Assembly: GCA_030141585.1 (NCBI GenBank)
Contig: JAQIFP010000081.1
Span: 1 to 27,199 of the forward strand
Source: Ophryocystis elektroscirrha
Lineage: Eukaryota > Apicomplexa > Conoidasida > Neogregarinorida > Ophryocystidae
Length of the DNA: 27,199 nucleotides
Direction: 5' to 3'
Under the pieces are notes generated by a model that saw only the letters and a program-made list of their open reading frames with translations, was not told the DNA's origin and did not search any database. Positions 1 through 27,199 of this stretch are shown here, one piece after another (the first letter of the stretch is position 1; each line of letters starts with the position of its first letter). Made by a program: the position numbers and the translations under genes.

Positions 1-1365
1 TGTTTTCGAGTTTGGGTTTAACTTCATTATTTTCGGTATGTTTTTTGCCAAATTCGTGGTTTTCTTCCTCAAATTCTTCAAAGTTCTTGTCGGTTTTTTT
101 TTTGTGAATAGGTTCAGATTTATCAAAAGATTTAAACTTCAAAGAATCCTTACTTTCTATGGAATTGTTATAAAAAATTTCCTTAGTTTGAGGAGGTTTC
201 CTGTTTACAATTTGATTATTTTGATGTGGGGTGTTGTTATTGACAAGTTTTCTATTTTTGTTGGCGGCTTCGTTCTCGTGGTCGTGGTGAACTATTCTTG
301 TTTTATGATTTAGAGATGAGTCGTATTCTTGTATTTTTGCACTGTTAGGAGGCTGTGTTTTTTGGTTAAATAAATGAGACTCGATCGGAACTAAAGAGAC
401 GGGTTTTTTTTGGCGTCTGGATGATGGAGTATTAAGACCACAAAATTGATTACTTTTATAATTTTCAGGTGGAGAAAGAGATCTATATACAATTCGAGAG
501 GATGTATTCAATTGTGGAGAACACGAGTTATATAAATCTGTCACTATATTACGATATATTGGCTGCTTATTTATATTGGCTTTTTGTTCTGGAGTTTTTT
601 CGGAATTCCATTTACGTAATATAGAGCGTGTTAATAATTGGTCGGACGGGTTTACATTGAATATATTGTCCGTTTGTATGGTTCGGGAATCCATTATTGC
701 TCCAGAGCGATTATATAAAGTAATTATAGGCCGGATACTTTCATAAGTTTTAGATATAGGTGTTATATCTACGGATGTTGGGACTGTTGTCGATGCAGAA
801 ACTTGATTATGCAAGTTATATGGAGACAGAAGTTTTTGTTGAGGAATTTGCTTTGAAACGGGAGACTGTTCAAAACATGCTGTTATATTAGAAGAAGAAA
901 TAGAGGAAGATGAAGAAGAAGACATGGAATTTCTGATGTTTTTTTTTTCACCACATTCTGTTTGTAATGCCTCTATTTTTTTTTTAGCTAAAATAGCATC
1001 CTTGCACTGCACTTCACGTATTTTAGATATTTCTTTTTGTAATATGTCTTTTTGTTGTAACAAATTTCCAACCATTACCGCATATTTGTCTGCTTTTTCT
1101 TTCAATACAGATGCTTGCAAATCACCTTGGTTGCGTAACTTTTCGCACTCATTTTTTAACCTTGTAATTTCATCCTTCATTGATATTTTAATTAAATCGT
1201 TTTCTTCTAATCGTTTTGTAAGTTGTCTGTTCTCTTCTTTCAACTTCGCATTTTTTTCTTGTAAACTGGAGATTGTTGTTTTCAACTCATTCAGCATATT
1301 TTCCGTCTAAAAAAAGTATTTCCATGATATAACAGAGAATTTTCATAATTATATACATATTTATA

Positions 1366-1401
<36 letters not shown>

Positions 1402-2506
1402 TATAAATATATAAATATTTTGATATATTAAAAACTAAATATATAAATATGTTAATTTATAAAAATGTAAATATATAAATATATAAATATATGGATATAT
1501 GAATGTATAAATATATAAAATGATAAATATATTAATATAAATAAATATATATATATATATATTTAGAATATTTATAGTAAAATTATTGGTTTTTTCTTCT
1601 TAAGCAATAATAAGATATACATATACCAGTTTGTTCAAAAATTAAGCATAATGACATTAATAAATACTAAATATTAATAGTATTATATTATATAATATAT
1701 AATACTAAATATTATATATACACTTGTTTTTTAGAAGTTAAAGTACAGTTAAATGTTTATATTTATACAGTAATTACTTTTATAGATGGAGCTTGAACTA
1801 ATTTCAAAGAGTTTTCTAATTCCTTCACTTCAGCAGTCAACCTAGCGATAGTTTCTTCTTGTGCTTGAATAATAATATTCGACTTTTCTTTCTGAGATGC
1901 ATTTAATGTAGATTTATCGTTTTCAACTGTCTAAAAATATGTTAAAAACAGATTTATCGTACTATAGATTTTTGTAAGGCTTTAAGTTGTAGTTCAGTTT
2001 GATTTAATTTTTTGTCTAAAGCTTCTTTTTCACGTTGAAGATTTTTAATTTCTTCCTCAGCTTTCGCTTTATATTTTTCTAGCTCAAATATTTGGTTACT
2101 GTAAACCTCAGCCATTTTTTCATTGTACACAGGCTTCAAGTGATGATGTTCATCTTCATCATCCGACATTCTCACTTTTTTTGTCTTTCCCCACCAGGTT
2201 TTTTTTTTTTTATGTGGTGTCTTCGGATACGTTCCGGTAGCATTTTTATTTGAAGTCTGATATGCAACATTTCACGATAATACAATAATAATTTATACTA
2301 TTTAAAAAAATTTCTACTTGCGCGAAGTTATCAGTTTGTTTATATATATATATATATATATATATGTAATACTATTAGAGTTTCTAAAATAACGTGTATG
2401 TATATATATATATATATATATACATATATACATGTGTAATACTATAAGAGTTTCTAAAATAACGTATATATATATGTAATACTATTAGAGTTTCTAAAAT
2501 AACGTG

Positions 2507-2560
<54 letters not shown>

Positions 2561-3697
2561 TACATGTGTAATACTATAAGAGTTTCTAAAATAACGTATA
2601 TATATATGTAATACTATTAGAGTTTCTAAAATAACGTATATATATATGTAATACTATTAGAGTTTCTAAAATAACGTATACATATATATGTAATACTATT
2701 AGACTTTCCAAAATAATATATATATATATATATATATATACATATGTAATACAATTAGAGTTTGTAAGATAGCGTATATATATGTATATATATATTTGTA
2801 ATATTATTAGAGCAATTAAAATAGTGTATATATATAGAGCATGATTTTGATGAATTACAATTAATTAAGGTTATTTAGAAGAATTAAACTTACAGTAAAA
2901 GATCTTGGAGACGATACTTCATCGTTTTGAATTCTATAGAATAAGTGTAGCTGAAAATTCTTACAGATCGATAGCGTCATATCTTAAATTCATCAGATTA
3001 CTTTCAAGCAGCAATTGCTTCCTAAGGAAACAATAAAATAAACTTTCATTTACTCTAATAATTTTTGAATTTCTTCATTTTGCTCAGTTCTGTAAAATAG
3101 AAAATCTGATTATTTTATGGTTACATTTTTATTTGAGCACTTTTCAAAGCGTCAGAAGGTTCTTTAGAATCACTAAAACAAATAGAGTACATTTTTGATA
3201 TTACTGCATTGTAGAAAGTTCTTTCCTTAATTGAGAATTCTCTTGTCTTTCTCTATTAATAAAAAACATTTTGTACATCTGTCAAAATAATTTTGTTACT
3301 TACTTTTCAAGTTCCGCTGATAACGCATTTACACTAAAGAAAATTTAATTATATTTAATTGAAGTTCATGAATATTTGGTATTTTATGCTTTATATAATT
3401 ATTATTTAATTGAAAATTAATATATTAATAGTATTTTTGGTACGTAATAGGATTATTTATGGCTATATATGTACATCTCCAATATACTCTGTCTTTTACA
3501 CAAATATTAGCTACAAATTTAAGTCTTTATAGCAAAGATATAATTTGCTATTATAATTCATAATGTGTATATATTTATTGTGTAAAATGGAGAGCCATAA
3601 AGTATATTTTTGCACGAATAAAACAAAATTGCAATAATTATACTATTATTTAAACAAATGCTTAATAAAAATAAATTTATATATAATATTTATATAA

Positions 3698-3729
<32 letters not shown>

Positions 3730-4197
3730 ATATATACATATATATATACATATATATATAAATGTGAATGACTTAGATGTTTTGAGAATATATTATAAAT
3801 GTTATTATGTGACTGTAGGTTAAAGTATAATTTATATTTGTCATTTATTAATATATGCAAGATGGATATTGATTGATTAATATTCAGGTTACCTTTTCTT
3901 CTCACTCATCAAAACGGTATATTTTTTATGAAGGGTCTGATATTTTTCAGTCAATTGGTAATATTTTTTCTATTAGGAAGGTCATATAACTACAATAAGT
4001 ATTACTTCCCAATTGTCTTGTGATAATATGGAAGACCTAGAATTTGATTCATACGTATTAAGTGGACTTTGAGAGGTTTCCTGATATTGTATAAAATAAA
4101 AATATAGTCTATAGTATTGGTGTAAATATTTGTTAACTCATGCGTGTGTATATATAAATGTTACTAAGTAAGTTTTATATCACTCTTAGAAACATAG

Positions 4198-4249
<52 letters not shown>

Positions 4250-4649
4250 GCTTGTGCAGCATTAATGGGTAATATAAACATGTATTTATACGAATAAGAA
4301 ATTACATGCAACATTATCTAAGAAATCTACAGAACAAGCAAATATTTAATTATTTTACCACTTTGCCGCCGGTTTGTGAATTAATAGCTTTCCTAGTCGG
4401 CAATAATTCAACATAAACGTTACTGTGGTAGTTTAAAATCTTTAAAATCTGCTTCGGCTCCAGACAGTATTACTGATGTTGTTCTTTCCAAATCTGAAGC
4501 AACTTATAAGATCTGTAAATTATTGAACCGTGTATAGAACTTTTGTCATCTTGCTCAGATGCACTGTGTGCCGATGTTTTTCGTTTAGATGACGAATGCC
4601 CCAATAAGTGCTTATTGGTAGTTCTGGCCAAATTTTTCATTGCCTTCAT
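1..4649 (-). CDS. Coiled-coil protein of unknown function, 14 exons, 3' end beyond left edge
   Basis: Rebuilt exons: 4649-4529, 4493-4424, 4392-4359, 4080-4006, 3969-3893, 3333-3304, 3252-3205, 3172-3125, 3089-3054, 3021-2965, 2933-2894, 2256-1963, 1930-1778, 1306-1. All join in phase and give about 796 residues. The ATG at 4649 is preceded by an in-frame TAA three codons upstream. Residues from about 80 onward are mostly heptad-type helix (for example LTEKYQTLHKKYTVLMSEKK), interrupted by a basic stretch (HKKKKTWWGKTKKVR) and an acidic-His stretch (MSDDEDEHHH). The last exon starts as coiled coil, then has a Ser run and a low-complexity Asn/Lys/Glu tail ending in a 9-residue repeat at the edge. 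No enzymatic domain is visible. A cytoskeletal or scaffold role is only a guess. Intron 1 uses an unusual gttcaa donor; exon 1/2 limits are the least certain. A 12-nt microexon near 4317-4306 is possible. The ORF appears to continue at 27199-26717. Confidence 0.75.
1307..1777 (-). other. Long intron of the coiled-coil gene, TA-rich
   Basis: The 471-nt interval between exons 1930-1778 and 1306-1 starts with gtaatt and ends with ttttag on the minus strand. It is nearly pure A/T, with a (TA)n run around 1368-1397 and another near 1545-1561. I found no further exon in it. Confidence 0.7.
2366..2827. repeat. Minisatellite of nine ~30-bp cores separated by variable TA tracts
   Basis: The core gtaatactattagagtttc (first 20 of about 30 bp, continuing to aacgt) starts at 2366, 2436, 2476, 2568, 2608, 2648, 2690, 2746 and 2798. 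The copies are nearly identical up to 2677 and decay over the last three. Copies 1-2 and copies 3-4 form a larger duplicated unit that includes a gtgtatg-(TA)n-catgt spacer. The whole array sits inside the 637-nt intron (2893-2257) of the coiled-coil gene. Confidence 0.9.
3334..3892 (-). other. Long intron of the coiled-coil gene, TA-rich
   Basis: This 559-nt interval starts gtaacc and ends ttctttag on the minus strand. The phase (AG|T) joins the coil MSEKK with SVNALSAELEKE without interruption, which supports skipping the whole interval. It holds cata/tata repeats around 3695-3760 that give a meaningless Tyr/Met-rich ORF. Confidence 0.7.
4200..4245. repeat. (TA)n microsatellite
   Basis: An uninterrupted run of about 22 TA units inside the 278-nt intron 4358-4081 of the coiled-coil gene. 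Confidence 0.9.
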
Positions 4650-5027
4650 TTTCCGTTAGTTTTCCAATTTTTAAAATTCATTTATTAATTTTTTTTCTTT
4701 ACAAAAAAATTATATGAATTGCTTCAGCCCTGCTTGTTGAATTAACTGTACAGGTTTTATGATTTTTTTAATATTTGAAGCAAAAATCAAGTTTTTATTT
4801 GAATAAAGCAACTTTAACATCCAAACATAATAAAATATATGTGCAAAATTTATAAAGCAGTTTTTATTTGATAATTTCCAACAGATAATTATAAATTGTA
4901 GTTTTTTGTCATTTGCAAGGCTATTTTACTAATGTGGGATTTTTTTTTGTAATAAAATTATTTGAATTATATTATTAGCGAATTTTTCAGGCTTTTTTTC
5001 CTTTAATTATAAAAATAAAAAAAAAAT
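4650..5027. other. Intergenic: 5' flank of coiled-coil gene and 3' flank of RPL12
   Basis: AT-rich sequence with several poly-T/poly-A runs (4689-4696, 4941-4949, 5018-5026). Both neighbours are on the minus strand, so it should hold the RPL12 3' UTR and the promoter of the coiled-coil gene. I see no ORF or RNA gene in it. Confidence 0.6.
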
Positions 5028-5738
5028 TTATTTGACTGCAACTGTTCTTTCGCTGATAGATTGAACGGATTCCATAGTTAACTCAGATTGCCAATGTTTT
5101 GGTGATTCATTATTAACAGTGCAACCAATTGCATTACTAAAATGAATCAAATTAGTAAACAGTGAAGATAATTTCAGATACAAATTATATATAAAGATAC
5201 ATTATTCGAATAATAGTAATTTTTAACATTACTAATAATACAATATTTAACACCAGACATTTAGTATAAGTATACAGTAATACTCTTGAGTATTACTGTA
5301 TACTAAATTAACTGATATTATAACTCACCAAGTGCCTAAAACTTCCTTTACGGTTCCGAAAAGATGCTTTGATGGAATACCAGTGTTTCTTTCTCTCAAG
5401 ATTTTTGCAATAGCAACAACTGACTCTATTGTTAAATTGCCATTGTGTTTAATGTTCTTAGTCTTCTTTCTATCACGAACCGGTTCATGCAATTCTTTAA
5501 GTAAAAGAGCAGTTGCTGATGGAATTACATCAACGGTAGCTTGACGATTTTGAATAGTTAATTTCACTAAAACTTTGATTCCTTTCCAGTCTTGTGTGGC
5601 TTTTGCAATATCTTCACCAACTTTTTTAGGCGACTAAACAATACAATCATTTAGAAACAGTAATCATTTGCAGTCAAACTATCTGTAATTTACAAAATCT
5701 ATTATATATTTTCAATTATATATAAATACACATATGCA

Positions 5739-5773
<35 letters not shown>

Positions 5774-6311
5774 ATATATATGTATATATATATATATGTA
5801 TATATATTATTATATATATGTATATATATATATATGTATATATATTATTATATATATATGTATATATATATGTATATATATTATTATATTCATTTATAGA
5901 ATTATATATATAATTTTATATATAATTTGATAAATAAATATGAACATTTATATAAATTCTCAAGTAATAACAACCAATATTAAATATATGACTGATTCTA
6001 TTACTAATATATTTGAAAATATGCTAATATGTCCGCTGTTATTCAAGTCTACATAAAGAGCATAAGATATTATTATTTCAGCGAAGATAATTTACAGCAC
6101 AATACAGTATAATTGAAGTCAAATAATGTAAGTTTTAAATAGAGTGTCTAAAAGCATTAATTACCAAACCTAATGGCCCTAATTTAGGTGCAAGAACAGC
6201 TGTTGCTCCGACTTCGCCACCAACTTGTCGTAAAAATACTGGAAAAAAAATATAAGTTTACTGATTTTACCAACCGTATTTAATTTCGTTAGGGTCGGGT
6301 TTTTTCGCCAT
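5028..6311 (-). CDS. RPL12: 60S ribosomal protein L12 (uL11)
   Basis: Large-subunit stalk-base protein uL11, which binds 28S rRNA and anchors the P-protein stalk in the cytosol. Exons 6311-6275, 6238-6165, 5633-5329 and 5136-5028 give 174 residues, close to the usual ~165. The start reads [17 protein letters not shown], followed by [46 protein letters not shown] and [14 protein letters not shown], all hallmark blocks of the family. Intron 1 (6274-6239) only keeps frame with the atypical donor gttggt; the nearby gtaaaa would break the conserved KYVFLRQ. Intron 2 is 531 nt and full of TA repeats (5741-5890); intron 3 is 192 nt. The gene is divergent from RPS25 across 195 bp, which suggests a shared promoter. 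Confidence 0.95.
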
Positions 6312-6506: not shown

Positions 6507-6880
6507 ATGCCACCTAAAGAAAAAAAAACTAAAGCTCAAATTCTCGCCGCTGCTTCTTCAGGAGGAAAATCAAAGAAGAAGGTAGAAAATTAAAATAACT
6601 AAAAGTTTATATTTAGAAATGGTCAAAGGGAAAACAGAAAGACAAATTAAATAATGCAGTTTATTTTGATAAATCGACTTATGATAGACTTATGAACGAT
6701 ACACCTAAAATGAAGATGATTACCCCATATACTGTCTCTGAGCGTCTGAAAATCAACGTTTCACTTGCTCGAATGGCTATCAAATACTTAGAAGATCAAA
6801 AACTTATAATTCCATCAGGTCCTCAAAATCATGCTCAAAAAATATATGTACCAGCAACAGTAAAGGCTGCCGCTAATTAA
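6507..6880 (+). CDS. RPS25: 40S ribosomal protein S25 (eS25)
   Basis: Small-subunit protein eS25. Exon 1 (6507-6581) encodes MPPKEKKTKAQILAAAS and a Lys-rich end; after a 35-nt intron (6582-6616), exon 2 (6617-6880) starts KWSKGKQKDKLNNAVYFDKS and continues through the winged-helix core (TVSERLKINVSLARMAIKYL) to the stop. Total 112 residues, the usual family length. The KWSKGK/VNNxVxFDK-like block and the ARxAIKxLxxxxxI block are diagnostic. The start is the first ATG after an A-rich leader. It heads a run of genes on the plus strand and faces RPL12 across a short divergent promoter. Confidence 0.95.
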
Positions 6881-7004
6881 GTTCAAATTAACTTTATTTT
6901 TTTTTTACTCTTTTTAGAAAAAAAAAAAAAAATTATAGTCTCAAATATATAATAATACAAATCAACAGTTTTAAACTAATTAAATAAATAACTTCTATCA
7001 GTAA

Positions 7005-8903: not shown

Positions 8904-9686
8904 ATGCTTCAATATGCTTTTGATAACAAAAGAAATAACCGAAAAGCTCAAGATTCTAAAGAACATGTAAAAAATGAAATTAATCGACCATATAAAAATG
9001 AAGTACTTTCTAGGAAATTCCCAGAAGTTGTGCTTAGATTAGCTTAAGTTTTTTTTCTTTTTTATTTTCGGAATTAGTTAAAGTTTGCTTAGCAAGTTCC
9101 ACTGACGGTAATGAATTAGAAGAAAAATTACACTCTATGGGATTGGGCGTTGGTAGCCGGTTATATGAATACATTTCTTTCAAAAAACGCCCTGGTAAAC
9201 GTGATGTAAAAATATTGAGCATTTTGACTTTTATCTCTCAAACATGCTGGAAACTTTTGTTCGGGCGTCTGGGAGAATTGCTAAAAAGTGAAGATAATAT
9301 AAATGAATGTATGTCCTATATATATATACACATGATTAAATAGATATGATTAAGGATACTGACTTTGTTCTAACTAGGTTTATTGACGTTCCCAAAGTAA
9401 TTTTAATTATCCATATAATTTATAGTTTTAACTTTTTATATATATACAAATACTTGCTATAATTGTACTGTGTAATTAGTATTATTAAAGTTAATTATGA
9501 TTCCAATTATTGATTATATTATAAATGACTATTATATATATATATATTTATATATGTAAATAAGACTATTTACTTTTTTTTTACCAATAATTTGTTGATA
9601 CATATATACATATACATATATATATATATATTAAAAAGTAATTTAAATTATATATACATATATATATATATTGAAAGCTAATATAC

Positions 9687-9733
<47 letters not shown>

Positions 9734-10007
9734 AAAACAAATAATACATGACATTATATAAAATGTGTGAATTTGTGTATGTTATAGAACTTCGGGCATC
9801 TAAGCGTTGCTTCGTACGCTGCTGGTATTATAGAAGGAATGTTATGTGTGGCTCAATTTGTAAGTAAATTGTTGTTATATATGTTGTTAATAGCCTGCTA
9901 TTGTAACTGCTCATAATACTGACGAAAGCAATCCTGGCGATACTACAATATTGATTCAATTTTTTCCTGAAGTAGTTGAACGCAATAAAGCTATTAATAT
10001 ATCTTAA
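8904..10007 (+). CDS. TRAPPC5: TRAPP complex subunit 5 (Trs31/TRAPPC5)
   Basis: Core subunit of the TRAPP tethering complex and Rab GEF acting in ER-Golgi traffic. Exons 8904-9002, 9038-9308, 9344-9396, 9788-9859 and 9894-10007 give 202 residues (human about 188). Family blocks in order: NEISLSFFSFLFSELVKVC (matching the TEVSLSAFxLLFSELV type), then LHSMGLGVGSRLYEYISF, KRDVKILSILTFISQTCWK, LFGR, a YMIKD...RFIDVPK block, SVASYAAGIIEGML and FPAIVTAH. Intron 1 was placed so that ISLSFF follows KNE; reading through instead gives a stop. Two 35-nt introns and one 34-nt intron sit beside a 391-nt TA-rich intron (9397-9787). An in-frame ATG at 8865 would add 13 residues of TA-derived sequence and is less likely. 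Confidence 0.9.
9690..9731. repeat. (TA)n microsatellite in TRAPPC5 intron 3
   Basis: An uninterrupted TA run within the 391-nt intron 9397-9787, preceded by several shorter tata/cata blocks. Confidence 0.9.
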
Positions 10008-10448: not shown

Positions 10449-11377
10449 ATGACGCAATCAGATGATAAAAGACTACAAATATGTGAAGAATATATAAATA
10501 ATAATACACTTCGTGGCTGTTTAATTGGAACAACTCAACTTTGTCTAGATTTATGTGTAGCTTTAAAGCTACCTATACAAGTTATAATAACAAGTTTAAA
10601 ATGTATACAAATATATTTGACCGAGTTTGATTGGCAAAAAGTAGAATTTATTCATTTAGTCGGAGCTTGTATATTACTTACATGGAAATATTATGAAGAT
10701 GTTTTTTGTATAAAAAGTGCACGAAAACTGATTGAATTATCTGAAGAAATAATAAAATTACTACTTTTTCAAACTAGTGTGTCCCATCAATTAACACCCG
10801 CATCTATACAAAAATGTGATTTAAGAAATTTGTCTATAATTGACTTTAAGACTAAAAATGAAGGAAAGGAATTACAACGTATAAGGGATCGTATTAGAAT
10901 ATACGAGAATTGTTTATTGAGATGTATGAATTTTGAGATTAATACTGCGGAATTACCATTCTCATATATAAATTTTTTATGCTCTCATATATATAATGCA
11001 GAAGTTGAAAATTACGGTACTTATAAAAATACATATATTTGTTTATAGAAATAAAACATAGCTTACCAACATTTATTTATATAACTTATGGAATAACTAT
11101 TGATTATTATCGAACTCCATTTTGTCTATTATCGACCCCTAATAATATAGCTTTAGCTGCTATATGGAAATCTGCAATAACCCTGGGTCTACAAGTCCCC
11201 TTTAAAAATATATTGAATCAAGGTATACATCGTTATATATATACATATGTAGAATTTAATACTGATTATTTCCCTATAAAAGATGTAACAGAACATAAAT
11301 TAATCCTAAATAGAATGCGCCATATCTACGATTGGCTAGAAGATTTTATTTGTACAAATAAAATCTTTACTCAATAA
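10449..11377 (+). CDS. Cyclin-box protein, transcription-type (cyclin K/T/L-like)
   Basis: Probable regulatory partner of a CDK. Exons 10449-11016, 11049-11222 and 11253-11377 give 288 residues, joined through introns of 32 and 30 nt in phase. The first cyclin fold spans roughly residues 20-185: QLCLDLCVALKLPIQVIITS and IQIYLTEFDWQKVEFIHLVG, then ACILLTWKYYED, and finally YENCLLRCMNFEINTAELPF, which matches the ERxLLxxLxFDLxxxxPxxY signature of transcriptional cyclins. The second half (FCLLSTPNNIALAAIWKSAI) fits the second fold. The subtype cannot be fixed by eye. A four-codon uORF (10441) overlaps the start. The gene is convergent with RPP2, with 69 bp between stop codons. Confidence 0.75.
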
Positions 11378-11446: not shown

Positions 11447-11873
11447 TTAATCAAATAATGAAAAACCTAAATCGTCATCTTCCTCTTCTTCTTCCGCTTC
11501 TTTTTCAGGTGCTTTTTCAGCTTCGGATGCTTCAGTTTTTCCTTCAACTGCAGCACTGCCTCCACTAGAACGGCCAACATTTGAAACAGATTGTAATTTG
11601 CTCATACCACTTGAAATCACCTATTTGAATACATTACATGATAAAAAAAAAAAAAAAATTATAGTCTTATGCGCATTTTTTCAACTATATACTATAAACC
11701 GACGTTGCAAAAATCTTCACGTATACAAAATACTCAGTTACGATTGTATATTAGCTTATATATCTTAATATCACATATTTAAATATAATATTATATTAAT
11801 TATATATATTTATATATAAATAAGTATTTATCGCATATTTATGTAAATTTTAACTTTTATCAATAATCTGTAA

Positions 11874-11905
<32 letters not shown>

Positions 11906-12214
11906 ATTGTAATTTAACTTTTTTTTTTTTTTTTAATCAAAATTAAAATGAAAATGTTATTTTAGATTCAAGAAAGTATACTACAATGAAAGAGATGTGT
12001 ACACGCATAAGTATAGTTTGTACATTAAATTGGAGATCATTGTGATTACCTCTGAAGCAGACTTTCCAGCCATTTCAGACATTAACTTATCAAGAATTTG
12101 ATCATCTATTTCAGACCCAACTGAATTTAAGATATCGCGAATATTTTGATGTGTAGGGTGCTGTGTTCCAGCCAATACAGACATCAAATATGCACTCACG
12201 TATTTTAATGACAT
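11447..12214 (-). CDS. RPP2: 60S acidic ribosomal protein P2
   Basis: Stalk phosphoprotein of the large subunit that recruits elongation factors. Exon 1 (12214-12050) encodes MSLKYVSAYLMSVLAG, HPTHQNIRDILNSVG and the dimerisation helices; after a 429-nt intron (12049-11621), exon 2 (11620-11447) encodes VISSGMSKLQSVSNV, a Gly/Ala/Glu hinge, and ends in EEDDDLGFSLFD, the universally conserved C-terminal tail. The 112 residues match P2 rather than P1 because the start resembles M(K)YVAAYLL and the helix pattern is P2-like. The long intron contains an A-run at 11643-11657 and TA repeats near 11875-11896. Confidence 0.93.
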
Positions 12215-13025: not shown

Positions 13026-13257
13026 CTACAACAATTAAGTAGTGACTTTCATATTTAATTACGTATTGTCTATATATATAAAAATGTAATTCGCTGATTA
13101 CTATTAAAAAAAAATATATATGTAATAAATATATATGTATAGATTTACTACACGTAATTTATAAGGAATTATATTGATATATTAATTATAAAACATTATT
13201 TACTCGTATTTCATATAATTATCTTTAATATATGTAAATTTAATATATTTATATTTA

Positions 13258-13289
<32 letters not shown>

Positions 13290-13589
13290 GTAAACATTAT
13301 ATTATATCTATATATGTATATGTGTAAACTATTTAATATCTCTATAAATGTATTTTTTATTCTATATCTATACATATACATGTATATAACATTTTATATA
13401 TATATATATATATGTATTTAGTATTTATATATACATCTGTATCTTATTATATCTATATATATATGTGTATACTATTTATACCTGTATATAATATACACAT
13501 AAATATATCTATATGTGTATATTATTTAATATTTTTATATAGATGTATATATTATTTTATACCTATATATATATGTATATAACATTTTA

Positions 13590-13634
<45 letters not shown>

Positions 13635-14300
13635 TTTGTTTATGTATATGTATATATTATTATGACTATATATTATATAATATCAATATAAACATGTTTC
13701 TCTTATTTGAAATTTATATGTATGTATACTAGTTCATATATATATACATATATATATATATAAGTTTATTATTTAATATCTATATATATGCATACTATGT
13801 ATACCTGTATATATATATATATATATGTGTAAATGTAAATACTACCATAGCCGTTAAATATAATAATTAGTTATTATATAATAAATATAATAACTAATAC
13901 TAATACATTTACTAATACATGTGTTTTGTTAAAAAGTCAATCCTAAACAAAAATATGTAAAAAATTAACCACATATTTATTAATTAAGCAAATTAAATGA
14001 TATTCAATTGTAAGCGTACAATTATATCATTTAATTTATCGCATTACATTATTTTCATGTATAAAAAATAATTTATTATATTTTAAGATTTTAATAATTG
14101 ATTATACTTCACATTTAAATAAAAAATTACACAATCGAGCTATAGTGTAAATATATAAAATTTTATTATTATAAAAGAGGTAAGTTTTTACATTTTTATA
14201 TTCATATTTTTTTTCATATTTTAATATGTAAAAATTTTAAATATATACTATAAAAAAAATTAAGGTTTTATATTGCAGTTAATATATAGTGTGATATTTT
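13026..14300. other. TA-rich stretch with degenerate ~35-50 bp repeats
   Basis: About 1.2 kb that is almost entirely A/T. Between about 13260 and 13840, blocks of the type tctatatatgtgtatact, then atttaatat or atttatacctg, recur with decay, separated by pure TA runs (13258-13280, 13590-13630, 13806-13826). It is either a very long intron or intergenic DNA. No coding exon is visible. Confidence 0.6.
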
Positions 14301-14546: not shown

Positions 14547-14559
14547 AAAAAAAAAAAAG

Positions 14560-15581
14560 TTAATTAATTTTTTTAAAGCTAATTAACACTCTTAATACGC
14601 TTAAAGATTTGTTAAATACTTGGTATTGTAAGAAATTTATAAATTGAACTGTGTATGCTTGTTCAAATATGCCAAGAGCATAAACGCTTTGACGGCATAA
14701 TGGACAACGAGGTATATTATTTACTTTAAGATTTGATTGAATAACTGTAAATGAGCAATAGGAACAACAATTGGAGTGCATACAAGGTAAAAATACGAAT
14801 TCTGGATCATCTTCAAAACAAATGAAACATTTAGTACTACTAGTCTTGTATAATTTTTTTGGTGAACTTTTATTAATTATTGTATTACTCGAATAACCCG
14901 GCTTTCTGGAATTATTAATTAAAAAATGCTCCACTTTATCATTATGTAACTTCATTTCTATATATGGAGACAATTTAACAACTTTATTTATTATATTTTG
15001 AATATCCCTATATAATCTTAACTCGAGATTAGATTTATTTTTAATCCGCGATATTAATCTGAATTTAAAAATATATTTCTTAAAGGCTTACTTGTAATAA
15101 TTTTCTCCCTTTTTCTCTGCCAATAATCGTATGCATTTAGGTACAGATTTATCGGCTAAAACTTCATGTTTAAGATAAGTTTTTTGGAATTTTTTAATGT
15201 AGAATTTAGTGCCTAATTCTGGAGTAAGCAAAAACTTATATCGTATTTGTTTAGAGTTGTTTATATTGTTAATAATTTCTTCAAAATGATTTACTATAAC
15301 GATTGTTTTTTTGGTACTTTTTTCTGAAAGCTTTATATAATATTAGTTTTCATTATATCTTACTTCTATATCAAATATAGAATGGTAGATAATTTCTACA
15401 CAGACACAGCATAATATAGCGGTAAATGTCCACGTTGATGTTTTCAATATTCCTATGCACAATATGAATTGGGATTTTTTTTTTTTTGCTTACCTATAGT
15501 AAATGCTACGAAAGATACTATAACAGTGATTCCAAAACATAACCGCTGAACTAAAAACCTTTTTCCGTATATTCTATACAT
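14560..15581 (-). CDS. Two-transmembrane RING finger protein (probable membrane-bound E3 ligase)
   Basis: Exons 15581-15494, 15452-15364, 15330-15092 and 15007-14560 join in phase to 287 residues. Residues about 13-33 (LVQRLCFGITVIVSFVAFTI) and about 37-55 (TFTAILCCVCVEIIYHSIF) are two membrane helices. A basic middle follows, and a C-terminal RING starts near residue 199: CFIC, then CMHSNCCSYC, then CPLCRQS, a C3HC4 set with all eight ligands present. RING proteins of this form recruit E2-ubiquitin; location at the ER, Golgi or another endomembrane is inferred from the hydrophobic N-terminus. After the RING come about 40 residues ending ISFKKIN. Introns are 41, 33 and 84 nt. A T-run of about 23 lies just upstream of the start (plus strand 15588-15610). 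Confidence 0.75.
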
Positions 15582-17318: not shown

Positions 17319-19820
17319 ATGTATAGAATTTTTGCTAGATATGCTTCAGTTCTTGTTAATCAGAAAGTTTCTTGTCTGAACCACATAGATTACAATTTGA
17401 ACTCAAATGTTAATGTTAAAGGTTTTGGTAATTATCTTCATAAAAAAAAAGTAGATATAAGCATTATAAGCATCTTATAAAAAAAAAAAAAAAAAACATA
17501 CTTTTTTCTTATATTTGAATAAATATCTTGTAAAATATAATACAAAAATTGTTTGAAGCTATATTACTGGTATTTAGCTTCACAGAGATGTCATATTTCG
17601 CACCTTAATAATAATAAGTCCTTACAATCATCCAAACCATCAAAAAGTTTAGTAAAGGAAGGAATTAACGATGCTATTGACGATTTAAAAAAAAAAAAAG
17701 CAATAGGAAAAATGGATAATATGGTTTTATTTTGCGGCAATTCAAATAAACCATTGGCAAGTGCAGTCGCTCGAGAACTTGGAATTGAATTAGGTTTGAT
17801 GAAGAAGTCGATTCTGTTATATTTGTAGGAGACTTAGATTCGAGTTATGATTACGAAGGAGAAACCAGATTCCAGTACAAAACGTCTTTGCGGGGAAAAA
17901 ATTTATTTATTATACAATCAACTTCTCCTCCAGTTAACGAAAATTTAATGGAACTTTATTTGATGGTAGCGGCTGCTAGAAGATCTTCCGCTAACAAAAT
18001 AACTGTAATATTGCCTTATTACGGGTATTCTCGCCAAGTAAAATTTAAAAAAAAAAAAAAAAAAAAGGATAAAAAATTAAACTCAAGAGTAACAATTTCG
18101 GCTGCTGATGTCGCTGCTTTATTAGAAACAGCAGGAGTTGACAGAGTAGTTAGTGTTGATTTTCATAGTGGGCAAACACAAGGATTTTTTAGCCCAACTG
18201 TTCCTTGCGACAATTTAGAGTCTCAGAATATTGGTATAAGTCATTAAAAAAAAAGTTTGTTAAAGCTGCGCTTTATTTAAAAAAAAAAAATTTTAAGGAA
18301 CTTGTAGTAGTATCTCCCGACGCCAGTAAGATGTTATAATTACATAAAAAACTCTCGATCGTTAAAAGCTTATGATATTATATTTGTGCTCATCAATAAT
18401 TATACATAACATAATAAACTTATACTAATTTTTTCGTTTATATCTCATATACTCTTTATGTGTTTACTCACATATACTTATTTATGATAAGTTATTCACA
18501 CACACATGCATGTAAATATTAAGAAATAAAAAGGTGTATTATTTTTTTTTATAACTCCCTTTGCAAAAGATTTTATATATCAAAAATAGTTGAATCTTAT
18601 TTAAAAAACATTATTAGGAGGAACTCATCGTGCAAGAAAATTTCAGACTTGTTTACTGCAACATGACGTGCCTGCAAATGATTTTGCAGTTGTTGTACAA
18701 GAAGTAATATACATATATATGCTTGATATTCCTTTAAGATAAAAAAGTCTAGTAAAATCCGAAAAAGAGATTTTGTAGGTTACGTTAAGGTATATTTTTT
18801 TAGAAAACATGCATTTTAAGGGCTGTGATGTCGTTATGATTGACGATATGATTGATACAGGACAAACTATTTGCGAAGCTGCTGATTATTTACGTCAAAA
18901 TGGAGCTAATGTACGTTAAATTTGTGCAAAATGTTTCGTTCTAATTATAAAGCTTGTATAATGTATTGCGTTTTACACGTATATAAATAATATATATATT
19001 GCCTATATACATATGCATAAATATATATGTAAACTAGTATATATCATATATATATGTATATATATATGTATATATATATGTATATATATGTATGTATATA
19101 TATGTATATATATATCTATATATATGTATGTATATATATGTATATATATATGTATATATATGTATGTATATATATATATATATATACATGTATATATGTG
19201 TATATAATTAAATATAATTATATATATATATATATATATATTATCTTATTATATTATATTAGAAATAATATATTATTTCTAAGAACAGCTTTATATACGC
19301 TTTAGAGGTGATAACAGGCAATTAAACATATACATCCAATCATTAATACAAAATTGAAATAAATATTGTTAATATACTTATTTTGATATAAATTTATTCA
19401 ATATATAATATGCACATGTATTAATATATTAATAGAATTAATTATTACAGATATTGATACTTAAATACACTTTCAATTATCATAATTTAATTTTTTTTTT
19501 TTAGAACATATATGTATTTGCTACCCATGGATTATTTAGCGATGGTGCATTAAGAAATATTCAGAAAAGTCCTATTAAAGAAGTTTTGATAACTGATACT
19601 ATTTTGCAAAGTTCTGTAAGCGTTAATTTGTACATTTTTACATTATTAGGAAGTATTAAGATGTAAAAAAATCAAACAGTTGAGTATTGGTAAGACAAAT
19701 ACGTAAATAATAATATTTTTTTTATTAGCGAAATTAATTGCTGATACGGTTAAAGTTGTCCAAGAAGAAAAAAGTACAGCAGATCTTTTTACAGCTGAAT
19801 ATTATAAACACAATAATTAA
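17319..19820 (+). CDS. PRPS: Ribose-phosphate pyrophosphokinase (PRPP synthetase) with N-terminal extension
   Basis: Makes PRPP from ribose 5-phosphate and ATP for nucleotide synthesis. Eleven exons: 17319-17427, 17578-17793, 17829-18037, 18068-18233, 18266-18325, 18618-18703, 18739-18789, 18821-18910, 19505-19615, 19650-19689, 19729-19820; all in phase, 409 residues. The core starts near residue 82 ([20 protein letters not shown]) and shows [52 protein letters not shown] and the PRPP-binding DDMIDTGQT. The first ~80 residues are extra: [16 protein letters not shown] is basic, without acidic residues, like an organelle presequence. Intron 17794-17828 explains an apparent frameshift. Intron 18038-18067 is 30 nt and stop-free in frame. 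The 594-nt intron 18911-19504 is TA-rich. Confidence 0.9.
19028..19241. repeat. TA/TATG microsatellite in PRPP synthetase intron 8
   Basis: Runs of tatatatg and tatgtatg units give two overlapping Ile/Tyr/Met/Cys-rich open frames that are not genes. It lies inside the 594-nt intron 18911-19504. Confidence 0.85.
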
Positions 19821-19866: not shown

Positions 19867-20399
19867 TTAAAATCTGATGTATAAATGCAATAAATAAATT
19901 TTTACCATATCTGCTATCCAAATAATATTTCTAATTTCTTGCTCTTTCAACTTTACCCACGCATAAAAGATTCCTAAAAAATAATTATTCATAATTTATA
20001 TGTTTATTTTAAGTTTGATACACTGTGGATGTGTTTATAATTAGCTAACAAGTTAGTGTAGTAAATATTCAGTCATATTTGTGTGTGCTTACCGTAGTGA
20101 AACTGCTCATTAAACGTTGCTTCACAAAGCTTCACATGTTTAGCAAATAAAACGTCCTCCAGAGACACACTAGAATTTTTTTGGCTTAACTCCTGTTGTT
20201 CTTGTGGATCATTAGGCTTTATATAATAATGTTTGCATTTTTCGTACAATTCTAAATATTCCTTAAATAGCTAAAGTAATCGTAAAACTAGCTTACTGGA
20301 TACGGCTCTAGTGAGGCTCGAACTGTTATATCATTCCAAGATTTACGAATTTTATTAACGCCTTATTATAATAAATTATAAAATAATATATACATATAT

Positions 20400-20446
<47 letters not shown>

Positions 20447-22043
20447 TTTAAATAAATTAATGAACGAATTATATATACATATATAAATATATATGTATAT
20501 AAAATATACATATATATTTATATATATGTATATAAAATTTGAGAATATACACATATACGTATATAAACTAATTTATTATTATAATTATTAAACTTCACAT
20601 CTTAACTCAATAAAGTACATATATGAGTCGTCCAAACTATTAAGCCTAATTACTAAATATTTATAACAGCAATAAATATTATTATTTGTTTATTTTTTAC
20701 CATCAGGATAAAGATATCCAAAACCAGGGTATAAAGAATTTCTATCTTCAAGACGGGCAACAGATCCCAAAGGAGTATTGATTGTATTCAAAGTTACGGA
20801 CAAGACTCTAAAATCAGCTTCACACTTCAAAATGTGACCCATTATCTTTGCTGTCGCTCCACCTGAATGAAACTTGAGTAAAATGGAGGCATTCTTACCC
20901 AAATTTTGACAGTAATGGTAGAAACTTTCAAGCCATGCTTTTTTTAAAGCACTGCGCATTATCTCTAAATCGTGCTCAGTGAATTTTTGATTATCCATTC
21001 TTTGATCTTGAGAAGTTTTCGTTTTAAAATATGAGTCAAAATAGGCACCTTAGAAACACAAAAGAGTTTTAGTTGATGAGTATCTATGCAATAATAGATA
21101 TTTAAATTCAATATCATTATTTATTTAATTGAAATACTTATTTTACAGATATTAATGTAAATAGTGCTCAAATCATGCATAATTTACAAAATTTTTTTTT
21201 TTATGCAAATATATTTGTTAACATCGCGTGTTGCTAAAATATTCCAAAAAAAATAAATAATGTACCAATATATTAAATTATAAAAAATTATATTATATGT
21301 CATTTTAAATATTGAAAACATGTTTAATTATTTTAATATTATGCGATTAAATGTATTTATTTATAAATATATTTAATTATTTGCGAATTAGTTTATTTTT
21401 TTTGATAAAAGCATTACCCACGGGTGAATCAAGCAAAATAATACGACAAAGATCTTCATATCCAGATGTGACATCAAGGGTGGCAATAGCTCTCATTTCT
21501 GGGAAATAACCTAAGGGATCAACTCTAGTTAGTAATTCCTGAGATAATCAATGATTAATTTACTTTAACTACCTCAGCTGGCTTCTTATTTGAAACACCT
21601 TGAATTAAGCTTACAACATTATCAATCATTTTTTCCGCTCTGAAAAAATGTGTTGATTTACAATCTGTGGTATATTTTTACGCTACATAGTTTAGAAATT
21701 CACTTAAAGGATACTGGGCTATAGATTGAAGGTACTGAAAATCTTCCGCTAATTTAGCTCGACATTTAGCTGCTATAGTTGTCACTGCTAACGGTGATGG
21801 TTCATCTTGCAAAAAATTCTCATAGTTCGTTTCTTCTAAGGCTGATTTAAGATCTGACAAATAAAAATATAATCCAATAAGAGCATGCAGAGATTTACAT
21901 TATGTGTGTGTATATATATGCGCAAATATAGAGAATCAGATTATATACGAAAAAAAAAATCTACTACATTTATAATCAGTTTAAGTAATTTAATTACACC
22001 GTTTATAAGTATATATCCATATTTTCAAATAAAAACATGATAT

Positions 22044-22075
<32 letters not shown>

Positions 22076-22514
22076 TTTATTTATATGCAAATTTGCTGAG
22101 AATGTAGATGCAAGGAGAAACTAATATATTTAGTTTAGATGTAATAACTATAAACTGTTACAATTAAACATATTGATATGATACGTATTCATTCCTAAGT
22201 ATTAATATCTAATATAATAGCGGTTGAGTTACGACTTCATACAAAACTATTCAAAACATTTCCAATTAAATGCATTGTTTATAGAATATATATTATTCTA
22301 TAAGTTATTTAATATTTACATAATAAATTTATTCGAATATTATAAGTATTAGCAGATACTATTATCATGGTTTCAAAAAACAATGCTTACCATCCAATGT
22401 TTCAGCAGCACCTAATTTGCGATAATCATCTGGTGTCAACAAGCATTTGCGATATCCACGAACTATAGCTTCAGCATATCCATCTTTAGCATTAAATGTC
22501 CATATACTTGACAT
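19867..22514 (-). CDS. VMA6: V-type H+-ATPase V0 subunit d
   Basis: The subunit that caps the membrane c-ring and links it to the V1 central stalk on vacuolar and other acidic membranes. Exons 22514-22391, 21853-21682, 21639-21573, 21538-21418, 21048-20701, 20361-20297, 20270-20093 and 19973-19867 give 393 residues (human 351). Family blocks: [136 protein letters not shown]. The donor of exon 2 is gtaaaa at 21681; the earlier gtagcg breaks phase. The C-terminus ([11 protein letters not shown]) is shorter than usual after IWIA. Its stop lies 46 bp from the PRPP synthetase stop, tail to tail. Confidence 0.92.
20402..20443. repeat. (TA)n microsatellite in VMA6 intron 5
   Basis: A TA run of about 20 units within the 339-nt intron 20700-20362, followed by imperfect atatacatatata blocks to about 20565. 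Confidence 0.85.
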
Positions 22515-22940
22515 TTAATTTATTACAAATTATTTTCCTGTTTACAGTTCCTGAAAATACTCAAACATTCTATTAGTAAAATTTATTCTTGAATAATATA
22601 GAAAAGTAGATATTTTTTGCTTTTTATGAATTTTGTGAAATGTAAGTTCTGCTCTTCTATAATTATTATTTAAAAGTTTCACTATCTTCTGACTTTTATA
22701 CGTGAAATGTACTTAGGCTATTTAATTCATATGCTATGTATTGAAAACTTTATAAGATAAATTAACTTGAAATACATAAAATATGGACATTGTATGATTT
22801 TTCAAGGTTTTCGCTCGAAAGTCATTTCTGACTTTTTCTATTTTTCTATGGTAAGAGTTACTATAAGCTCGAATATTCGAGTACAGTTACATATTAAAAA
22901 CTTATTGATATACAATTTTATTGATATTTTTTAATTTAAT
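22515..22940. promoter_or_regulatory. Divergent intergenic region, VMA6 / oocyst-wall-like gene
   Basis: The two genes start on opposite strands 426 bp apart. The sequence is somewhat less repetitive than other spacers, with no TA run. A gctcgaatattcgagt palindrome-like block at 22867-22882 lies about 60 bp before the oocyst-wall-like start and could be a regulator site; this is inference. Confidence 0.4.
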
Positions 22941-24638
22941 ATGAAGACTTTATTTAATTCATTTATTTTATCTCATTTTATAGTTAAGTATGTTTATAGT
23001 GAAGGTCTCTCTCCAAATTTATCTCTTTCCGCTTTATCAACATTGACTACAACACAAGGTCCAAAAGTTATACTACCCAAAGGTCAATTTTCGATATGTT
23101 TACCAGGCTACAATTTAGAGGGTTTATATTGCGTCAAGGAAGTTCGTCAAAATCCTGACATTACATGTGTAGAAGGTGTTGCTTTAAATGGTCGATGCGA
23201 AATATCAGTGGATTATACTTTATCATGCCCCGAAGGTTACCAGTTAACAAACAAACAATGTTCTAAATTAGTTCGTACTGGCGTTCAGTTTTATTGTCCG
23301 AAAGGTTATTATGATGATGGTAACGCCTGCACTACAACAGTTTCTAGTGAAGCTGTACAATTTTGCGAAATTGGACAGTTAATTAATGATAGTTGCGTTA
23401 TTCAAGAAAGAGCAGAAAAAATTATTACATCAAAATGTCCTGATGGTAGTGAATTAATTAATGGTTCTTGCTGGAAACAGATTGAGACATTTAATTGTAC
23501 CAAGTCTAATGACACACAAACACTTAAAGTTATAAATCCCAAAATTGAACAAGTTTCCATACTTAAAAAACCAACAAATAAATTAAAAAATAATAACCGT
23601 AACTTACAAAACATTAACGACCTACCCATTGTCAAAAACAATGAAATTCTTTCTGAGCTTGATGAAGGTGTTGAAAAGTTGATAGATAATAGTGTAGAGC
23701 AACTTGTTGTAGAGCAATTTGATGCTGACGACATTGTAGATGATTTAGAAGATATTTTAGAAGACAGGAGAGATAATTTAAGAAATCGTGTATTTGATAA
23801 TGAAGTTGCTATTGTCCGAAGATATTTCCAAAATATAAAAAATAACTTAGATGAATTAACTGACACAGAGGATGTTAAATTATTGAAAGATAGAATCAAC
23901 AATTTAGTATCTGGCGATCTGGCAGATGAATTACGTGAAAGGATTGACGAGCTGACTGATTCAGATTTGATCAAAAGAATTAAAGATAGATTAGAATCTT
24001 TAAGTGATTTTGAACCTGAAGGATTCATTGTTGAAAAAGTTCCAGAATTTTCAAGTCTCCCTGTTTCAGATGATAGCAGAGCATTAAGAGGGTTACAATC
24101 AAACAATGATTTATTCCAAGATACTTCAGAAAGAAATTTAATAGGAAATAAGCCAAAACCAACACCAGTTAGTACACATGAAATGGTTGCCGTTGGTGCG
24201 CCACAACCTAAAATTGTAGATGTAGTTTCACAGACATGTGGCACTAAAGTACAAGTTGAAGCAATTGGATTGATATCCTGTCCACCAAACTTTGTTATGT
24301 CAGAAAATCATTGTATAAAGGAAACAAGATTACCACCAAAATTATCTTGCGGATCTAATGGAGTTAATGATGATGGATCATGTATACCACTACAAAAACA
24401 TGTACCCAAACAACCAGGATGTCCACCTCATGGAATATTTATTAAAGGACAATGTTGGAAAAAAGAAATTTTAGAGCCAATAAAAACATGCCCAATCGAC
24501 TTCCATCCAGCAGATGATGTTTGTTTAGGATTTGTTCCACAGGGTTCATTAGAATGTCCTACCGGTTTGTCTTTGGTTGGAGATGTTTGTGTAGGACAAA
24601 TAATACGTGAACCAACATTCTTATCTTTATCTGAATAA
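22941..24638 (+). CDS. Secreted Cys-rich protein, oocyst-wall (COWP-like) family
   Basis: A single exon of 565 residues, the only long intronless gene here. The N-terminus (MKTLFNSFILSHFIVKYVYS) is a signal peptide. Cys block 1 (residues 53-186) has 13 cysteines spaced about 9-13 apart in repeats of the form C-P-x-G-Y-x-L-x-x-x-x-C, as in CLPGYNLEGLYC and CPEGYQLTNKQC. This matches type I repeats of Cryptosporidium and Toxoplasma oocyst wall proteins, which are thought to form disulphide-linked layers of the wall. A Cys-free, acidic, helical spacer (about 187-432) follows, with two related units, LDELTDTEDVKLLKDRINNL and IDELTDSDLIKRIKDRLESL. Cys block 2 (433-550) has 11 cysteines. RNLQ (220), RGLQ (383) and RNLI (398) sit in the spacer, the first near its start and the other two well before block 2. 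Wall location is inferred from family. Confidence 0.8.
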   Translation: MKTLFNSFILSHFIVKYVYSEGLSPNLSLSALSTLTTTQGPKVILPKGQFSICLPGYNLEGLYCVKEVRQNPDITCVEGVALNGRCEISVDYTLSCPEGYQLTNKQCSKLVRTGVQFYCPKGYYDDGNACTTTVSSEAVQFCEIGQLINDSCVIQERAEKIITSKCPDGSELINGSCWKQIETFNCTKSNDTQTLKVINPKIEQVSILKKPTNKLKNNNRNLQNINDLPIVKNNEILSELDEGVEKLIDNSVEQLVVEQFDADDIVDDLEDILEDRRDNLRNRVFDNEVAIVRRYFQNIKNNLDELTDTEDVKLLKDRINNLVSGDLADELRERIDELTDSDLIKRIKDRLESLSDFEPEGFIVEKVPEFSSLPVSDDSRALRGLQSNNDLFQDTSERNLIGNKPKPTPVSTHEMVAVGAPQPKIVDVVSQTCGTKVQVEAIGLISCPPNFVMSENHCIKETRLPPKLSCGSNGVNDDGSCIPLQKHVPKQPGCPPHGIFIKGQCWKKEILEPIKTCPIDFHPADDVCLGFVPQGSLECPTGLSLVGDVCVGQIIREPTFLSLSE

Positions 24639-24788
24639 GAATTATTATTTTATTTTAATTTTTTTAAGTTAAATTTTTTTTTTTTTTAAATTAATTATAA
24701 TTTTGCACGTTCTTAAGTTTCTAGGTGGCTTTTTTACATCATGCGCCAGATTAAAAAATATGCTTATTAATCTAGATTAAATTGTATA

Positions 24789-26580
24789 ATGGAACCATTA
24801 AAAGATGCAAAAGGAGATAGAGTAGTTAAAGAAGTTAAACCACCACCAGCTAACGTAAGAATGAAATAAATAATAAATCATAAAATATATTATGATTTTT
24901 TTTTTTTTTTTAATATTTTATTAAAACATAGCCTCTTTCCCGTAATTTGTTATACCCGCCATCCTTGGGAGGAAATACGATAGATTGGAAAGTTTTAAGA
25001 GATCATTTATATGATGAAGGAAGATTAACTAAAGAGGATTGTTTATCAATAGTACAACAATTCACAGAAATTACAAATACAGAGCCCAATTTATTGCGGT
25101 TGACGGCACCCATAACAAGTATTTTTTTTTTTTTTTTATTTATATTTTAGTTGTCGGTGATATACACGGGCAATACTATGATTTTGTCAAATTACTTACT
25201 GTAGGAGGGGATCCAGAAGAAACACAGTAACTTTTTTTTTTTTTTTTCTTAAGTATAGGTATCTTTTTCTAGGAGATTATGTTGATCGAGGTTGTTTTTC
25301 AATTGAAGTTTTACTATTATTATATTCCTTAAAAGTAATTTAGACACTTTTTTAAAAATAAAAAAGATATTACGTTCTCAAAGAATTTGGCTTCTTCGAG
25401 GGAACCATGAATGCAGACAAATGACGGCATTTTTCAACTTTAGAGCAGAATGTAATTTTTAAAAACCAAAATACTACCATTAGGTGAATTTAAATATGAT
25501 TTAACGGTATATAATGCATTTATGGATTCTTTTGATACCCTTCCAATAGCAGCGGTATTGGATAATAAATTTATATGCTTACATGGTGGTATATCACCCG
25601 ACTTAGATTCCGTAAGATGTTTAAAAAATAATTATTATTTGTAGTTGAATCAATTATCAGGAATCAATCGATTTCAGGAACCACCTCGTTCGGGATTATT
25701 TTGTGATCTTTTATGGGCTGACCCTGTTGATGGTAAACGCTCTGATTCTTTAAGCTCTATAAGTAAAAAAAAAAAAAAAAAAAAAGTTGTATCTTTTAGC
25801 GTCTGAGTTGTATTTCCCTAATGATGTACGTGGCTGTAGTTTTTTTTTTGGTTATGAAGCCGCTACTAAGTTCTTAAGTAGAAATAATTTGATTTCGATT
25901 ATAAGAGCACATGAAGCGCAGTTGGAAGGTTTCAAAATGCATCAAGTTAATGCTCAAAACGGTTTCCCCACAATAATTACTATTTTCTCCGCTCCAAACT
26001 ACTGTGATTGTTATAGAAATAAAGGAGCTATTTTGCGGTTTGATGTAAGTTTTTTTTTTTTTTTTTTATTTAATTATTAGAATAATACATTGAATATACA
26101 GCAATTTAATTTTTCTCCTCACCCTTACTATTTACCTAATTTTATGAACGTTTTTTCATGGTCTTTACCATTTGTATCTGACAAAGGTAATACAAAAAGT
26201 AAATTCACTTATTCAGTTCTTGATATGTTGTATGCAATTTTATATCCCGCTTTTGATTCTTCAAATGAAGATGAAGAAGATGATTTAACAGACATAGAGC
26301 TGCCAAAAGATGTGTTGAAGTTCTTTACGACAGAAAAAGCTATAGAGCGAAAAAATTTGGCAATAACACCTCAGCGTAAAAAAAAAAAAAAAAAAAAACT
26401 ATTTTAGGTTTGAAAAGAATTCAAGTTAAAGTTCAATCGCTAGACGAAATATTACGAATTATGAAAGCTTTAAAAAGAAAACAAGCAATACACTCTACTG
26501 AAGGTAGAGACTTCTTACATAGCGATGATGAAATCGAAGATATAAGCAATTCATCTGATCAATTGTATAAAAATAATTAA
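24789..26580 (+). CDS. CNA: Calcineurin catalytic subunit A (PP2B serine/threonine phosphatase)
   Basis: A Ca2+/calmodulin-dependent phosphatase. Eleven exons: 24789-24854, 24932-25118, 25151-25226, 25259-25334, 25367-25451, 25484-25611, 25645-25762, 25800-26044, 26081-26186, 26217-26375, 26408-26580; all in phase, 472 residues. Metallophosphatase signatures are intact: GDIHGQ, GDYVDRG, RGNHE, plus [16 protein letters not shown] and [16 protein letters not shown]2B identity comes from [20 protein letters not shown], the calcineurin B-binding helix ([18 protein letters not shown]) and a basic amphipathic calmodulin-type segment ([20 protein letters not shown]). The protein ends about 40 residues after that segment in an acidic tail, and I see no classical autoinhibitory segment. 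Nine of the ten introns are 30-37 nt; two of them (25763-25799, 26376-26407) begin GTA followed by an A-run of about 20. Confidence 0.93.
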
Positions 26581-26716
26581 TGTGTTAAGTAATTTTTTTT
26601 TTTCTTTCAGTTTTTTATGAATTAATTTTTCTTTGTATAAAATAAATATATCTAAAAACAAAAAAAAAAAAAGAACTATAAAAAAATATTTCAAAAATTA
26701 TATATTAGAGTACAGT
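26581..26716. other. Short convergent 3' spacer
   Basis: 136 bp between the calcineurin stop (+) and the stop of the edge ORF (-). It contains T- and A-runs (26592-26602, 26660-26671) that may serve 3' end formation on both strands. Confidence 0.4.
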
Positions 26717-27199
26717 TCATGTATATAATATAGGAAGATCAAATGATTCGCGGTCAATGTTCTCATGAAACATTTGATCTAGTTTCTCTATGGAACCTTT
26801 AAAATTGAATAATTTGGCAGCAGCTTCTAGCTCCAATTTAGGAGACGAGTTTACCTCAAAAAATGTGGATTGTTGCATACTTAGCATACGATGCAAAGAA
26901 TCATTGATTTTTAAATCATCTTCATAACTGGGAAGATTGATTTTTTCAGAAGTTAAATCCGGTACTGTCGTCTGTATTTTTTTATAATTTTCTGCGGATA
27001 ATAAAATATCTGTGTTATTAGTATTTTTTCTTTTCAAAATATAGCTTGCATCTGTTTTTCCACCATCTTTTTCTAAATCATTTACAAAGTGATCACTATT
27101 TTTAAGTTCCAAGAATTTAGGACTACTTAAAGTTGAGTTATTTGATAATTCAAAATTAAATATAGCTTCATTATTTTCGAGTTTGGGTTTAGCTTCATT
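26717..27199 (-). CDS. C-terminal part of a coiled-coil-type protein, open at right edge
   Basis: The reading frame is open from the right edge (27199 is codon position 1) to a TGA at 26719-26717: 160 residues. It opens with NEAKPKLENNEAIFNFELSN, a 9-residue repeat unit plus part of another, and continues polar and helical (ELEAAAKLFNFKGSIEKLDQ) to DRESFDLPILYT. It lacks an N-terminus. The repeat is the same as the one at the left edge of the window on the same strand, so this is very probably the missing C-terminus of the coiled-coil gene 4649-1. Joined with a 1-bp overlap of the two edges, the whole protein would have about 956 residues. No domain recognised. Confidence 0.7.
   Translation of the reverse strand, partial: NEAKPKLENNEAIFNFELSNNSTLSSPKFLELKNSDHFVNDLEKDGGKTDASYILKRKNTNNTDILLSAENYKKIQTTVPDLTSEKINLPSYEDDLKINDSLHRMLSMQQSTFFEVNSSPKLELEAAAKLFNFKGSIEKLDQMFHENIDRESFDLPILYT
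27155..27199 (-). repeat. 27-bp repeat shared with left edge (9-aa unit)
   Basis: The minus strand encodes NEAKPKLEN then NEA at the right edge; at the left edge (positions 36-1) it encodes ENNEVKPKLEN. Unit copies differ by one Val/Ala codon and a silent Asn codon (AAC/AAT), so they are distinct copies and not one copy read twice. Confidence 0.8.

Follow-up and report, generated by a model that had tools for sequence, protein, structure and literature searches.

Two ends of a 27-kb Ophryocystis elektroscirrha contig are very probably two sides of one coding repeat in a single gene

Contig JAQIFP010000081.1 of the apicomplexan Ophryocystis elektroscirrha (assembly GCA_030141585.1; here C98), the whole of which, 27,199 N-free bases, forms the window analysed, begins and ends in copies of the same 27-bp coding repeat. 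Judged by their sequence, the two ends very probably represent opposite sides of a single short repeat within one gene for a coiled-coil protein, because the repeat unit is unique in the assembly searched, the reading frame and the repeat register are both correct across the junction and neither half of the gene has relatives elsewhere in that assembly. An earlier note on this DNA had proposed as much and had gone on to suggest that the DNA is circular or arranged head to tail in tandem. The first of these proposals, one gene split over both ends, stands up well on the grounds just given; the second we consider rather unlikely, and the 127-base terminal overlap expected of a closed circle is absent. 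The explanation that we favour, and to which we would give about an even chance, is that a linear nuclear locus was broken at a coding minisatellite and was falsely closed by a misjoin inside the contig.

The left edge (positions 1 to 28, minus strand) comprises one copy of the repeat, encoding ENNEVKPKL, plus one base, and the right edge (27172 to 27199, minus strand) a copy encoding ENNEAKPKL, again plus one base; the two are identical at 26 of 28 positions. At the protein level the left edge reads ...ENNEVKPKLEN and the right edge NEAKPKLENNEA.... If base 1 and base 27199 are taken as the same base, frame and register are both preserved, whilst an abutting join destroys the frame, as the earlier note had it, and a single base is also the longest (indeed the sole) exact suffix–prefix overlap of the contig when overlaps of 1 to 2999 bases are tried. 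The fit holds only modulo 27, however: gaps of 27n-1 bases (26, 53, 80 and so on) fit equally well, and further repeat units could therefore be missing at the junction. Identity extends for ~8–9 bases beyond the unit on each side, so that the joined array would amount to ~2.6 units, and the partial outer units resemble a tandem array cut mid-way. Translated across the junction, the joined frame reads ...TENNEVKPKLENNEAKPKLENNEAIFN....

The N-terminal part of the split gene occupies positions 1 to 2271 on the minus strand, with exons at ~2271-1957, 1930-1766 and 1306-1 whose limits were set by eye, and the C-terminal part positions 26717 to 27199 on the same strand. Both open reading frames (ORFs) at the edges are in the ORF list as the earlier note described them: the left (2-1297, minus strand) gives 432 amino acids from its ATG and runs past base 1, and the right (26717-27199, minus strand), 160 codons plus a stop, enters open at 27199. 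Joined with the one-base overlap, the frame stays open for 595 codons until the stop, and adding the two upstream exons yields a protein of 721 residues. The figure of about 956 residues given in the earlier note is thus not confirmed; more small upstream exons, reaching to ~4.68 kb, are plausible by eye only. Pfam scans found no match above the cut-off in the two N-terminal pieces scanned or in the C-terminal part. No protein homologue of the left half was found at E <=10 among 4282 candidates, all of them at most 1.75 times as long as the query, so that proteins of ~956 residues fell outside this search, and none of the 721-residue joined protein at E <=10 among the 7993 candidates sharing most words with it.

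Could the edge match have arisen by chance? Genome searches covered 8,008,172 bases in 118 contigs, with ~0.62 Mb of the published assembly and contigs shorter than 2.5 kb lying outside them. With up to 3 mismatches allowed, the 28-mer is found in this sequence at the two edges of C98 only, and the reversed-pattern control gives no match; nor do the 432-residue left half or the 160-residue right half have any relative elsewhere in it at E <=10. A second match, of 25 bases within a poly-A stretch of C98, was discounted. For comparison, 71 of the 236 contig ends were sampled (41 heads and 30 tails, those of C98 included), and after removal of ten that read N, 61 were used. Among the 1830 pairs that these form, the head and tail of C98 are the sole match with a score of at least 18 and a GC content of at least 0.25. 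When random, non-overlapping pseudo-ends were drawn from the window, one pair in 2000, which lay in an AT array, scored as high; an earlier and cruder draw, in which overlapping segments were permitted, gave 3 of 400. Self-matching ends at the score of C98 (>=22) are found in 5 of the 22 contigs with both ends N-free, the matches of the four others (C50, C107, C110 and C115) lying in simple AT repeats. On this evidence the edges are one array, or two arrays sharing a very recent origin, since the match is unique both among the sampled ends and in the genome searched.

An 18-base core of the repeat was also matched, at 2 mismatches, in C57 and C71. These matches were rejected as being at chance level, the reversed-pattern control also producing one, and no 27-bp array was seen around either. 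The head region of C57 does carry short imperfect repeats (of the AAATCGCTTCTGT type), clustered in an apparent intron or spacer.

Whether the contig could be a closed circle depends on how it was assembled. The published genome comprises 8.63 Mb in 156 scaffolds with a GC content of 27.18%, and is described as having been assembled with SPAdes v3.13 from 250-bp pairs at a k-mer coverage cut-off of 100, the DNA coming from the pooled oocysts of eight butterflies, with mixed genotypes, and RNA scaffolding being done with Rascaf (PMC10210345). Many contig sizes drop with contig number, and C98 (27,199) falls in size rank between C96 (27,205) and C99 (26,652); this agreement suggests that C98 is the contig as SPAdes output it, without RNA scaffolding. 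Tandem repeats are a common stopping place in this assembly: in 28 of the 61 N-free ends the terminal run of pure tandem repeat is 117 bases or longer. In fifteen of the 61 this run measures exactly 127 bases (in two others it is longer, at 148 and 151), and for this reason the word size k of the assembler is 127, a value consistent with the default k list of SPAdes for 250-bp reads. Three contig ends lie in telomere-like TTTAGGG/CCCTAAA repeats, namely the heads of C86 and C108 and the tail of C114.

Closing a circle in a de Bruijn graph at k = 127 should leave the same 127 bases at each end of the contig. The terminal overlap of C98 is one base rather than 127, and C98 therefore does not qualify as a cleanly closed circle, the graph having broken at the coding repeat. 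This also disposes of the mundane alternative offered in the earlier note, that an assembler had closed the contig through the short coding repeat itself, since the contig is open, not closed, at precisely that repeat. A false closure would thus require a false join elsewhere in the contig. At least three other sampled contigs likewise stop in repeats whose period is divisible by three (24 bp at the tail of C93, 21 bp at the head of C100 and an imperfect 30 bp at the tail of C96), all coding by eye. No copy of any of these three end arrays exists outside its own contig in the sequence searched (at <=3 mismatches for one and <=2 for two), so the want of a partner for the C98 repeat says little.

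Set against de Bruijn contig breaks in general, the edges of C98 resemble the 28 sampled ends in lying in tandem repeat, but differ in that the contig carries both sides of its repeat and in that the repeat, as far as it is visible, is an imperfect one of fewer than k bases. Coding minisatellites occur in AT-rich apicomplexan proteins, and the C98 repeat is like them in being short, in-frame and rich in Asn, Lys and Glu, within a low-complexity protein region, although only ~2.5 copies are visible.

In the favoured explanation, short-read assembly of pooled genotypes at k = 127 would have broken at the 27-bp coding minisatellite, repeat-length variants being likely in the sequenced DNA because oocysts of eight butterflies were pooled. 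The true order of the locus would then run from 13.8 to 27.2 kb and on through 1 to 13.2 kb, with the split gene intact in the middle, and the apparent closure would come from a false join within the contig, most plausibly at an AT tract at positions 13,228 to 13,826. We infer all three elements of this scheme, the cause of the break, the falseness of the internal join and its site, and the false join was judged likeliest on prior grounds, partly as a matter of judgement.

That tract is the longest low-complexity stretch of the window, 600 bp of imperfect AT repeat with no recognised gene across it (GC 0.148 at 13–14 kb). Genes cross the AT tracts near 5.7, 9.6, 11.8, 19.0, 20.4 and 22.0 kb, whereas that at 13.2–13.8 kb is uncrossed. 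Shared-sequence searches that took each half of the window in turn, with 39 of 1122 candidates scored for one half and 39 of 1080 for the other, were dominated by AT tracts. The matches listed, a part of the 199 and 223 obtained and without the window's own match, served for AT-tract identities only; among them the tract at 13,228 to 13,826 is 67–77% identical to other AT tracts, and more sequence may be shared with other contigs. The tract may be the site of a false join or, equally, the point at which a real circle closed on leaving the chromosome, and it shows positive signs of neither. Our best guess is that a false join, if present, lies there. Another possible join site is the second long low-complexity stretch, at 2,341 to 2,836, which falls within the split gene only if the upstream exons placed by eye are real. 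This second stretch is a complex minisatellite built from 40-bp units (TATATATATATGTAATACTATTAGAGTTTCTAAAATAACG), perhaps intronic in the split gene.

Several observations weigh against a false join. The longest exact direct repeat in the window is 105 bp, inside the stretch at 2,341 to 2,836, and the longest exact tandem run 102 bp; all exact repeats thus fall below 127 bases and no ambiguity at k is seen inside the contig. There is no N to mark a scaffold join, and no positive sign of a misjoin was seen in the interior. A random false join would, moreover, have had to bring together precisely the sequences that flank one repeat on its two sides, which would be a coincidence. Nor do models of repeat-length alleles account for the placement of both edges: in five models (arrays longer or shorter by a single unit, or longer by three) the right edge was produced in two and the left edge in none.

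The alternative that fares best is that C98 is a real cyclic unit, either an extrachromosomal circle of ~27.2 kb or the unit of a head-to-tail tandem array. The gene would then continue unbroken over the junction, and the minisatellite would simply be the place where the assembler stopped. We consider this rather unlikely, although a good deal fits it. Frame and register agree at the junction, which unrelated edges would manage about once in 27; no flank carrying the edge repeat is found elsewhere in the searched genome; and the interior appears sound, with no exact repeat reaching k, no N and AT tracts bridged by genes. Extrachromosomal amplicons are, moreover, reported in Plasmodium falciparum (PMC8246734, PMC9915586). 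Against it stands the missing 127-base overlap, and each form of the circle would meet a further difficulty. A circle coexisting with a chromosomal copy should cause the graph to branch inside C98 at the flanks, yet the interior is unbroken, whilst a circle alone would leave calcineurin A and ribosomal protein genes with no other location, an arrangement that is biologically unlikely. The ~6.4 kb tested (1-1300 and 22100-27199) is single copy in the searched contigs, and a collapsed tandem array would look identical. The strongest version of the idea, an apicomplexan nuclear minicircle in the shape of a 27.2-kb circular or tandem nuclear element bearing about a dozen genes (among them calcineurin A, V-ATPase subunit d and ribosomal proteins), possibly in their only copies, strikes us as improbable.

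Also improbable is a linear chromosome in which the ends of the segment fall in two different genes, each with the 27-bp repeat, so that the joined protein is illusory. The want of partner arrays for all three of the other repeat-ended contigs makes such an absence normal, and partners could lie in the ~0.6 Mb and the contigs under 2.5 kb outside the search, or at ends such as the 10 of 71 sampled that read N. Arrays with 26 of 28 positions identical should, however, bring related flanks with them, and searches at E <=10 give no relative for either half in the genome searched; the register would fit by chance in only 1 case in 27. Repeat-length alleles were also set aside as the cause of both edges, the left edge being the product of none of the models.

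What lies between the edges looks like ordinary chromosomal cargo, with genes of housekeeping type. The window has a mean GC content of ~25.5% and introns that are, by eye, short and T-rich. Ribosomal protein L12 (uL11; 5031 to 6311, minus strand, E 3.8e-40) spans the AT tract at 5717-5924, with exon 1 (6311-6270) and exon 2 placed by eye, and is followed by ribosomal protein S25 (6617 to 6877, plus strand, E 4.6e-30). A TRAPP subunit, presumably TRAPPC5-like, lies at 9038 to 10004 on the plus strand across the tract at 9598-9730, its first half matching at E 7.5e-18 and its second half (9788-10004) recognised by eye. A cyclin-like protein (10449 to 11377, plus strand) was identified by eye only, its first exon being without a Pfam match. 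The 60S acidic ribosomal protein P2 (11450 to 12217, minus strand, across the tract at 11775-11908) falls below the Pfam cut-off at E 6.3e-4 and ends in DDDLGFSLFD, which we take to be the C-terminal P2 motif.

Beyond the uncrossed tract are a RING-finger protein (14563 to 15087, minus strand, E 2.7e-10), ribose-phosphate pyrophosphokinase (PRPP synthetase; 17541 to 19663, plus strand, across the tract at 18980-19259, E 1.9e-47) and V-type ATPase subunit d (20076 to 22514, minus strand, across tracts at 20364-20534 and 22040-22086, E 4e-40). A cysteine-rich, apparently secreted protein encoded by a single exon (22941 to 24638, plus strand) is oocyst-wall-protein-like by eye; it has no Pfam match above the cut-off and one copy in the genome searched. 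The calcineurin A catalytic subunit (24932 to 26577, plus strand), likewise present there in one copy, matches 5b8i_A at E 2.1e-125 and its best chain, 9b9g_I, at 1.4e-187 in two stretches. Scans of the window for tRNAs and for Rfam families at the gathering threshold gave no match.

The nearest biological comparison is with the extrachromosomal DNA of P. falciparum, also an apicomplexan, where the elements are described as chromosome-derived and in part putatively circular (PMC8246734, PMC9915586). The evidence for those elements comes from gels combined with exonuclease tests or from long reads, whereas for C98 it consists of contig ends; their cargo is a resistance gene or var genes, that of C98 genes of housekeeping type. 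The word 'circular' is absent from the main text of the O. elektroscirrha genome paper (PMC10210345), and none of the papers searched joins the species name with 'extrachromosomal'.

Should C98 prove to be an assembly artefact, which we judge the likelier outcome, the order of a 27-kb locus would be corrected and one gene model would be shown to be split over two contig ends. It would also supply a screen for false circles, in which k is inferred from repeat-ended contigs and a terminal overlap of length k is then required. Should C98 prove to be a circle, essential apicomplexan nuclear genes would reside on a small circle or in an amplified locus without evident drug selection, which would be very surprising.

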